NCBI RefSeq assembly: GCF_030704535.1
Contig: NC_081812.1
Span: forward strand, 15,163,001 to 15,227,000
Direction: 5' to 3'
DNA from: Vitis vinifera
Taxonomy: Eukaryota; Streptophyta; Magnoliopsida; Vitales; Vitaceae
Length of the DNA: 64,000 nt
A program made the translations under genes and the position numbers. The notes below the pieces were generated by a model. It saw only the letters and a list, made by a program, of their open reading frames with translations, ran no database searches and was not told where the DNA came from. Positions 415 through 59,741 of the stretch are shown in pieces; position 1 is the stretch's first letter, and each line of letters opens with the position of its first letter.

Positions 415-497
415 AGCGTCATTGCTCGCGATGGCGTGGGACCAGTCCGTATCTCTCTTCCGGATGATGACTTCCACACAGCGTCATTGCTCGCGAT
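415..497 (+). repeat. Duplicated 18-bp element upstream of GSTL-A
   Basis: The 18-mer AGCGTCATTGCTCGCGAT occurs at 415-432 and again at 480-497, 65 bp apart, just upstream of the TATA box. The promoter of GSTL-B has the element only once (about 59684-59711, reverse complement). The element holds a TCGCGA palindrome in a CpG-rich context and could be a transcription-factor site. That role is inference. Confidence 0.85.
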
Positions 498-517
498 CGC
501 GCGGGATCAATTTCTCC

Positions 518-524
518 TATAAAA
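518..524 (+). promoter_or_regulatory. TATA box of GSTL-A
   Basis: TATAAAA lies 66 bp upstream of the start codon, in the context CTCCTATAAAACCACTC. The same box is kept in arm B. Expected transcription starts would be ~30 bp downstream, giving a leader of ~40 nt. Confidence 0.75.
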
Positions 525-589
525 CCACTCAGAACTGCTATCTCTCTGCACCCTAAGCTTCTCGCCCTCCCAGACAGCAGACATCAGAC

Positions 590-57074: not shown

Positions 57075-59589
57075 TTACTGGGTCTGCAAAGCGGGAAATA
57101 TGTTCAAGAGGTCAGCAATTTATATATAGTCTGCAAGCACAGAGAAAATTGAAAAAAGCACACATAGAACATTAAACCAGATTGCTATAGAAGTATTACC
57201 AGGAAACGCTTCTTGTAAGCTTCAACGAGTTCTTTGGGATCACATTTTGTTTGCTTATAAGCACCAATCTTGTTCAACTCCTGCAGAAGGATTAAGGATA
57301 TGAATGACCAAGATGATCGTTGAAGAACCAAGAGGGAGCATTACAATAACACGACACACTCCTTTGCACAACACTCACTCAAAATTAAAATAAGTAATTT
57401 TCAAACTTTTTAGAAGTACATTCTAAATTTTGCCAAATGCCCGATTTTTCATCAAAAGTGTTTTTTTATGTTAAAAATGTTGCCTAAAAGTACTACCAAA
57501 CAGACTCTAAGTGTAGTAAAAAATTTCTGGGAGGATCATCAGTAGAAGTGCCCCAAAAAATGCTGCACTATGCTCGGATTCAATTAAATTCTGATAATAC
57601 TCTTTCCACCAAAACCCTTACTATAGACAACAAAAACCAGCACTCTAAACTCAGATTAACCTATTTATATAACTGACTTCCAACAATGACCATCATGTCA
57701 CAATCCACTCTGAGGCTTAAATAGTATGAGTAAGAGTAAAAACCCTTTCAGGAGGTAAGCAGCAATAACCTGTAAGCCCAAGGCACACTTCTGAACTACT
57801 AGCATGCCTGTGCCTAGGTTTGTGCAACTTCTACAGTTTATCAATGGACAAGGAGGGCATCTGCTTCATTATGGAGAAAAGTTACTGCTAACTACATTTC
57901 ATCAATCTTTCTATTAACATTGTATGATTTTTGAAAGTACCTCAATCCATGCTGCTAGTTTAGGCCTGCCAACTGTGATGTCATACTTCCACACTTCGGA
58001 TAAGAAGATTTGGAATCTTTCAACAAATGGAATGTAGGCTATGTCCACCTGAAAACATAATTTTACTTGTGAAAGCTAGATGAGAAAGCACTTAACCCAA
58101 AATCAACAAAAGGCATGCAATGCAGCATTAAGAAAGAACTTTAACATGAACGAAAAGTATACCTACCAAACTGAATTGGCCAAGGAAGAAAGGCCCATCA
58201 TCAAATTTATGAAGGGCAGTTTCTAGATGATCAAAAGGACCACCTGTTACAGATAACTAGCTTCCATCAATCTCCTGCATAGAATACTGTGTAATAATAA
58301 AAATTCCACAAGTATCAAGGTAAACAACTCACCGACTTCTTTTGTTGGGTCTCCTTTTAATGAAGTATATAAAATTCTGTTGAATGTATCAGTGTAGGAG
58401 ATCAACTCCTCAGCAAACTCTCGCTTGCCAGGACCCTAAAATGTTTTCACATCATCACTTTTGTTAGAGAGGCGGAGACAGAGAGGGGCAGCCCATCAAG
58501 GGCACAAACGAATTTTACAAATCTTACATCAGGGCAAAGTGAAGGCCCTCCAAAGTTGCTATCAACGTATTTAATCAAATCAAGACTCTCTCCAATGACT
58601 TTGTTATTGTGGTCCAGTGCAGGCACCTATAGAAGGACGACTTCTTAGTTGATGAAATAGAGGATATAATTTGTTAAATTGATGTAAAAGCATGTGTGAT
58701 CATCTGTAAATGATCAACTAATGTGTTTTCCATAAGCACAAAATTTTAGAAAACCAAACATCTCAATAGGTCTCCTAATAAATAAATGAATAAAAGCATA
58801 TCGTTTTCAAAGAATATTACCTTATTTTCAGGGTAGACTTTTTCCTTATACCATGCAGGCCTGTTTTGAAGGTTAAGAGGAACCAATTTAATCTGTTCTT
58901 GTAAACCCTGAAATCAAAAGATTTAAAGACAACAGAATATCAAAGCGCGAAGTTTGAAATCTAATACCAAACCATAAAAGCTTGCATTACACAACTTAAG
59001 AACAGCAAAGCAGAGTTTTCAAGGGAATCAAGAGAACCAACCAACCTTATAATTCCTGGTTATCCACACTCGCTGGGCGAAGGGGCAAGAATATGAAATA
59101 TACAACCTTCAAGAAACAAATCCATTTTTATAAACCCGAAGAGAAATCCAAATTTTAAAAAACGACAAATCGCCTGCCGCCCGCTGTTTGGTTGCCAAGA
59201 AAACTCAGTAAATGAAATCCAAAGGCCCCGAAAAGAAAATTTAGTTAACCCAGTCAAACAGTATCACAACGGATAATTGAGCCGATCATTCTGTTTCCCA
59301 ACCATTGAAACAACAGAATTTTCTTTATGTTCTTTCCTTTTACAGGACTTGAGTTTATTACCAACCAAACAGGGGATCAGCAAATGATCGGAAAAAAAAA
59401 CAGAGTGAAAATGAAAGAACCTTGTGGTGCCATCAAAGAGAGGAGGTTGATCAGAAGTAGAATCCAACACCGGAGGCAGAACCTCTTCCACACATCTAGG
59501 AAATTCAAAACAAAACAAAACCCCATTAATTGAAAGAAATACAATGCAAATTTATGGAGAAAATTTCCAAAAGCTTACGTAGTGGCCAT
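57075..59589 (-). CDS. GSTL: Lambda-class glutathione transferase, copy B (10 exons, 236 aa)
   Basis: Exons on the minus strand: 59589-59579, 59495-59421, 59106-59046, 58907-58821, 58626-58528, 58435-58333, 58243-58167, 58048-57941, 57280-57200, 57083-57075. All exon lengths equal those of copy A, all splice sites are GT..AG, and there is no stop, so the gene looks functional. Cys36 in S-C-P-F-A-Q is kept. Differences from copy A by my count: G76E, E83D, I130N, V133L, F137L, A142T, A147G, T148P, N176Y, K182R, A197V, V224E, V225L, T230K and L232R. The B states Tyr176, Arg182, Glu224, Leu225, Lys230 and Arg232 are, from memory, the usual ones in plant GSTLs. The role is thiol transfer/deglutathionylation with glutathione, probably in the cytosol. 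The promoter has its own TATA box and CpG-rich element. Confidence 0.93.
57380..57515. mobile_element. MITE-like insertion in GSTL-B intron 8
   Basis: Counterpart of the element at 2643-2815, ending ACTACCAAACAGACTCTAAG. It carries an extra [20 protein letters not shown] segment and lacks ~70 bp present in arm A, so the element has been unstable since the duplication. Confidence 0.45.
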
Positions 59590-59662
59590 GTCTGCTGTCT
59601 GCTGTCTGGTGTCTGGGAGGGCGAGAAGCTTCGGGTGCCTGAGAAATCGCAGTTCTGAGTGG

Positions 59663-59669
59663 TTTTATA
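59663..59669 (-). promoter_or_regulatory. TATA box of GSTL-B
   Basis: TATAAAA (minus strand), in the same context as in arm A, lies 74 bp upstream of the start codon. The leader differs slightly from copy A by small insertions of CAGACAG-type repeats. Confidence 0.75.
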
Positions 59670-59741
59670 GGAGAAATTGATCCCACGCGATCGCGAGCAA
59701 TGACGCTATGCGGAAGTCAACGCGCGGCGGAGGAGAGATAC

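Follow-up and report, generated by a model that had tools for sequence, protein, structure and literature searches.

An inverted copy of a TerC-GSTL-TBC segment beside a broken PRR7-like gene in grapevine

Results

Genes and features of the locus

We analysed a stretch of 64,000 nucleotides of grapevine DNA (the window, C8:15163001-15227000, C8 being contig 8) with 90 kb of left flank and 80 kb of right flank added from the same genome. Contig numbers are taken as chromosome numbers, which would place the locus on chromosome 8. Positions are window bases and run on outside the window, position r being C8:15163000 + r. Two lambda-class glutathione transferase genes (GSTL-A and GSTL-B) lie on opposite strands in two inverted arms, each beside TBC (Rab-GAP) sequence; the end of a copia-like LTR element, the 3' part of a PRR7-like gene and, in the flanks, a TerC gene and the 5' part of a PRR7-like gene complete the locus (Table 1). 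Searches for tRNA genes and for Rfam families at gathering scores found none within the window. The 46.7-kb spacer between the arms carries kinase exons (18627-19136, Pfam E 1e-24) and WRKY exons (28695-29522, E 9e-27), all on the minus strand, and about eight copies of a 32-bp tandem repeat at 40171-40430. At 75173-76480 a second tandem array is built of units of about 440 bp, 874 bp of which align at 94%.

Table 1. Features of the locus in window coordinates, or in contig coordinates where marked C8.
Feature	Position	Strand	Remarks
Arm A, part in window (donor)	449..6758	+	GSTL-A whole and TBC exons 1-5; continues left to C8:15149489
Arm B, part seen in the sequence-only reading (inverted copy)	53435..59741	-	Self-comparison
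Arm B, outward continuation missed in that reading	59742..64000	-	Homology blocks, the last one beyond the window
Outer block	A -6681..-6142 / B 60279..59678	inverted	77%
Outer block	A -6868..-6665 / B 60873..60669	inverted	96%
Outer block	A -10900..-8871 / B 62824..60874	inverted	93%
Outer block	A -11522..-11447 / B 62894..62819	inverted	97%
Outer block	A -13511..-13137 / B 65505..65108	inverted	91%
Copia-like LTR element, end	1..406 (whole element -6109..406, 6,516 bp)	-	Arm A only
GSTL-A, lambda-class glutathione transferase	590..3110	+	10 exons, 236 aa, CPFAQR motif
GSTL-B	57075..59589	-	10 exons and 236 aa; all splice sites retained
TBC (Rab-GAP) gene at arm A	4001..9837	+	Open across the arm edge
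Truncated TBC pseudogene, arm B	53993..56183	-	Codon 58 is a stop; exon 3 lacks 2 bp
Dispersed repeat in TBC intron	6590..6855	+	Inner edge of the duplication cuts it at 6758
Novel inner junction, flipped PRR-bearing segment / arm B	53434..53435
TerC gene at arm A	C8: at least 15149300 to about 15156135		Spans the outer boundary of A
Sole TerC exon match in arm B	62462..62596	-
PRR7-like pseudo-response regulator pseudogene, 3' part	47911..49525	+	Two exons matched
PRR7-like gene, 5' part (receiver exons)	C8:15230057-15230436	-	Right of arm B

Size, identity and edges of the inverted repeat

Self-BLAST of the window found an inverted match between 2802-6758 and 57390-53435 (95.0% identity over 3,996 columns) and a second one between 468-2584 and 59719-57607 (96.2%), with one extra block of 97 bp. 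A looser search merged the arm matches into 449-6763/59741-53430. The arm match scored 6,198 bits versus 41.7 bits for the best minus-strand match in 20 shuffled windows (permuted as 6-base blocks). These results bear out the inverted duplication that had been read from the letters alone at 449-6758 and 53435-59741, with 95-96% identity. Introns and intergenic DNA align between the arms, as they should in a segmental duplication made by copying. The core p-distance is 0.0315 (194 differences in 6,165 compared columns; block-bootstrap interval 0.026-0.037). K ranges from 0.013 to 0.062 across ten arm blocks, and given this unevenness some gene conversion is possible.

With the flanks included, inverted homology continues blockwise out to -13511 (C8:15149489) on the left and 65505 (C8:15228505) on the right. 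The arm size of 6.3 kb given in the sequence-only reading was too small: arm A reaches about 13.5 kb beyond the window's left end and takes in part of a third gene. The outer breakpoint placed at 449 was also wrong, as the homology is interrupted there by the 6,516-bp LTR element and a short tandem repeat. The boundary in a fixed window can be a transposon edge and not a rearrangement edge. The remaining left-right rows of the looser search (57-72% identical) were read as AT-rich chance or repeat matches. No counterpart in A was found for 2.2 kb of arm B (62895-65107), which faces a 1.6-kb stretch of A that has no counterpart in B.

The element has direct repeats with TG...CA ends (-6109..-5548, 562 bp, and -160..406, 567 bp), flanks TTCCG/TTTCG forming a short target duplication with one mismatch, and pol-like ORFs on the minus strand, and it was identified as an LTR retrotransposon on these features; the copia class was assigned by eye. 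It sits within the short tandem repeat, of which arm B has fewer units (by eye). With simple repeats set aside, 13 of 456 sites (2.9%) are different between the two LTRs. This is close to the divergence of the arms and suggests insertion near the time of copying or soon after. The GSTL-A start codon lies 183 bp downstream of the element. Duplicated promoters had been claimed for the arms; this holds for TBC and fails for GSTL, where the upstream sequences now differ.

The two GSTL genes

As first read, GSTL was duplicated whole, with 236 aa and every splice site kept in both copies. GSTL-A matches Pfam GST_N_3 (E 1.7e-22) and GST_C_2 (E 6.4e-8), and CPFAQR is present in both copies. This is a form of CPxA, which we take to be the catalytic-cysteine motif of lambda-class GSTs, and the N and C domains together with CPxA mark the lambda class. 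Both proteins match the lambda GSTs GSTL1 and GSTL3 (PDB 4pqh and 4pqi, presumably from poplar) nearly over the full length (229-234 residues, E 3e-109 to 1e-117). Unlike these, the grapevine locus holds two near-identical copies, which differ at 20 of 711 nucleotides and 15 residues. The differences (5 synonymous and 15 nonsynonymous) are indistinguishable from neutral (binomial p 0.79) and thus no functional claim is made from dN/dS.

GSTL-B scores slightly above GSTL-A against GSTL3 (395 versus 385 bits) and GSTL1 (373 versus 368 bits). Polarisation by the paralog on contig 6 gave 16 usable sites, with six changes assigned to A, six to B and four ambiguous; codons 224, 225, 230 and 232 were left out (exon 9 was mis-mapped) and exon 1 has no differences. 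In alignments read by eye, 4pqi and 4pqh favour B at seven residues (176, 182, 230 and 232 in both; 130, 224 and 225 in GSTL3) and A at six (83, 137, 142 and 197 in both; 133 in GSTL3; 147 in GSTL1), and favour neither copy at residues 76 and 148. The polarised sites and the residues are weak evidence in either direction. Since the residue count is near even, the higher scores of GSTL-B give at most a hint that the donor gene GSTL-A may be drifting.

TBC at the inner edge and TerC at the outer edge

TBC exons 1-5 in arm A match positions 2-91 of the Pfam RabGAP-TBC profile and the next exons, in the spacer at 8580-9452, match positions 93-210 (E 3e-31). The exon ending at 9837 and more 3' exons to about 16 kb were read by eye only. 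In arm B no TBC exon was found past the fifth, and the two fragments differ by 8 synonymous and 15 nonsynonymous changes (binomial p 0.13). The inner breakpoint (6758/53435) had been located correctly: TBC is sliced in an intron, inside a dispersed repeat, and runs on at A. The repeat has at least 48 matches, two of which belong to the window itself, among the 40 candidates scored out of 346. The arms had been proposed to drive an inversion of the 47-kb spacer, but no sign of one is seen: TBC passes 6758 without a break, and the left end of the spacer is thus in its old orientation. Upstream of arm A, at -17163..-16182, lies a diverged fragment resembling TBC, with DNA 74-80% identical to stretches of the TBC region and 32% identity in tblastn.

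The outer boundary at -13511 falls inside an intron of TerC. The exon at -13700 and the next two exons, within the arm, together match TIGR03718 (TerC/Alx family) without a break (profile 55-124, E 3e-26, 76 residues); the score is below the whole-protein cut-off, as expected for this length. Pfam TerC matches as well (positions 1-56, with a further piece at 98-141); in one Pfam test the exon left of the boundary was weak, only its last three residues lying in the matched stretch. The sequence just left of the boundary (-13800..-13510) matches nothing in the genome but itself. When the TerC exons of the arm part were searched against the genome, six matches resulted, of which arm A holds five and arm B one. 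TerC in B lacks 547 bp and 2.0 kb. The corresponding A-only stretches (-11447..-10900 and -8871..-6868) were considered as inserts in A, and this was rejected: TerC exons lie inside them and the stretches are therefore deletions in B, one of which shows 6-bp microhomology (by eye).

Donor and copy

TBC and TerC continue across the boundaries at A only, so that arm A holds both old junctions and arm B neither. Arm B has two novel junctions instead, as expected of a duplication by copying. Arm A is the donor and arm B the copy, settled on both sides, in agreement with the sequence-only reading, which had called B the copied product from TBC; TerC past -13511 adds the second side. The full duplicated unit is TerC (3' part) - GSTL - TBC (5' part). 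In arm B both TBC and TerC are decaying and GSTL-B is the only intact gene.

The distribution of the junctions also bears on a staggered-break inversion, in which the whole 46.7-kb spacer would have been inverted and the arms would be its filled-in staggered ends. Such an event leaves inverted repeats on both sides of a unique segment, the overall layout found here, but it calls for one old junction in each arm, whereas A has both (TBC and TerC) and B has neither. Under this model a gene severed at 53434 should carry on in 1-448, read as reverse complement; that prediction was discarded, 1-406 being LTR sequence. We regard this inversion as very improbable.

An equally improbable reading is an assembly artefact, with a second haplotype joined in opposite orientation, which had been named as one of the outcomes that would overturn the duplication. 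The range of heterozygosity in grape takes in 3% divergence and so the identity of the arms would fit. Against it, arm B has unrelated flanks on both sides, a truncation of two genes, and its own stop codon and deletions, and it lacks the copia element. The assembly is probably PN40024 T2T, which is 99.8% homozygous; in the excerpted text of its description no heterozygous hotspot is listed on chromosome 8 (PMC10199708).

Capture of the segment by a transposon (Helitron or Pack-MULE) deserves slightly more weight and is still hardly credible. Captured segments typically hold a whole gene and sliced neighbours with introns, and arm B has this content with its introns kept. However, the ends of B (76-base stretches) share no inverted exact word of 7 bases or more, no flank word longer than 4 is shared, TC...CTRR ends were not found (by eye), and in a whole-genome search a 1-kb arm probe (3000-4000) matched the two arms only.

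The broken PRR7-like gene and the older gene order

The 3' part of a PRR7-like gene, to the left of arm B, consists of two stop-broken exons (47911-48737 and 49133-49525) that were identified by aligning them with the contig-13 paralog. On the other side of arm B, two pieces of the 5' part match Response_reg below the curated cut-off. The two parts probably derive from one gene. Two further exons of the contig-13 gene, one before and one after the matched pair, had no match in the stretches of contig 8 searched, and the PRR break is therefore bracketed and not exact.

Elsewhere in the genome, the closest receiver exons are on the plus strand of contig 6 (4.6506-4.6510 Mb) and contig 13 (1.8669-1.8673 Mb), and on contig 13 the receiver and later PRR exons lie on one strand. 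Lambda GSTL exons are found on the minus strand about 35 kb beyond PRR on contig 6 (4.6862-4.6903 Mb) and about 63 kb beyond it on contig 13 (1.930-1.944 Mb). The reverse complement of this order, GSTL(+)...PRR(-), is the one seen on contig 8, from which it follows that the old orientation survives in arm A and in the right flank. GSTL-A and the PRR 5' part match the paralogous order; the PRR 3' part is thus the flipped piece, with arm B in between. On contig 6 a search up to 5 kb from GSTL found no TBC, and a genome search gave no TerC match on contig 6 or 13, so that the paralogous blocks confirm the GSTL-PRR order alone.

We take contigs 6, 8 and 13 to be a gamma-triplication set, and the PRR relic would then be a third gamma copy of PRR3/PRR7. 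Gamma-derived synteny of VvPRR3 and VvPRR7 has been reported; in the available portion of that paper the genes were retrieved by PR domain and CCT motif, for which reason a broken third copy is probably unlisted there (PMC2887406).

The sequence that adjoins arm B on the left (52499-53434) was tried as a gene cut by the arm and dropped: a dispersed repeat, about 400 bp long, fills 52499-52896 (45 matches listed including itself, the others 70-92% identical along the whole or a part of it) and the frame at 53233-53360 has no Pfam match at E 0.1. A few kb to the left of the flipped PRR part, frames at 45560-46080 resemble a LINE reverse-transcriptase fragment (by eye).

Discussion

The locus is a clear and unusually well resolved case of an ordinary, known kind of plant genome rearrangement. 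Since the donor is shown on both sides and the older gene order comes from paralogous blocks, the direction of copying can be read at one locus, together with an LTR insertion of similar divergence and the different fates of whole and sliced genes. It also accounts for two near-identical GSTL genes and the broken relic of a PRR-like gene in grapevine.

Our preferred explanation, which we consider probable, is break repair with template copying of the SDSA or MMBIR type, with A as donor and B as copy. The segment between the TerC intron and the TBC intron at arm A would have been copied by DNA synthesis and pasted, inverted, about 47 kb away at a break in the PRR7-like gene. The same repair may have flipped a piece of about 5.5 kb carrying the PRR 3' part. 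As to pathway class, this could be synthesis-dependent strand annealing that leaves filler DNA, or template switching in microhomology-mediated break-induced replication. A copia-like element would have inserted upstream of GSTL-A near the same time or later. Afterwards the TBC and TerC fragments in B would have decayed while both GSTL frames stayed open. Several discontinuous junctions are found at one site (the copy and a local inversion), and a distant copy, a local flip and two PRR exons without a match in the stretches searched form the pattern described for MMBIR and plant filler DNA.

Whether the flip and the copy belong to one event is close to an even call, and its share overlaps with the serious rival of two separate events sharing a breakpoint. 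On that account there were two or more independent events: a dispersed copy of A, direct or inverted, landed near PRR, and PRR was broken independently by an inversion of about 5.5 kb, or of about 18 kb if it included B. Copying first and later inverting the copy with the PRR 3' part would give an equal map, and so would an older separate inversion followed by insertion at its junction. It demands, however, that an inversion breakpoint coincide with an edge of B. We hold independent events to be a real though lesser possibility.

The sequence-only reading had proposed template switching or fold-back repair. The template-copying class stands as likely, and fold-back fits less well. In a fold-back, the broken end at 53434 would have paired near 6758, copied outward over A and rejoined at 65506. 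Human fold-back inverted duplications likewise have a single-copy spacer between the inverted copy and the original, and reported spacers span 766-70,466 bp, a range that includes ours; in the same excerpt 20 of 21 sequenced spacers are shorter than 15 kb versus 46.7 kb here, and the human cases are found beside terminal deletions or translocations or in rings (PMC3907307). A fold-back would also need a second template switch back onto the same chromosome, and on its own it leaves the flipped PRR 3' part unexplained. We therefore rate fold-back as unlikely.

Template-copying repair has precedents. In plants, non-collinear gene insertion by filler DNA during double-strand-break repair (SDSA) is described in the part of PMC3445842 that cites Wicker et al. 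(2010), and also in an excerpt of PMC7935947, a study that includes Vitis vinifera. Like those insertions, arm B is a multi-kb genic copy with introns and gene fragments at its edges, the donor is intact and the copy decays. Unlike them, as far as the two texts describe, the donor here is about 47 kb away on the same chromosome and the copy lies inverted at an inversion junction in another gene. Duplication, inversion and discontinuity with several junctions per locus are shared with the MMBIR/FoSTeS rearrangements in the summary given by PMC2621351, whereas the grapevine event is old (probably millions of years) and occurred in a plant.

Substitution rates of 6.5e-9 and 2.5e-9 per site per year are in use for such estimates. 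At these rates the arm divergence of 3.1% would correspond to about 2.4 or 6.3 million years, respectively, and a copy of that age should be old enough to be common to all V. vinifera. A bolder scenario may be drawn from the sequence, in which a single repair event several million years ago destroyed a third gamma-paralog of the PRR3/PRR7 clock genes and made a working second GSTL, this copy being now better conserved than the donor because the copia element cut the donor's promoter. We consider this scenario improbable as a whole. For pangenomes, the prediction is that the flip and the copy are shared in related Vitis.
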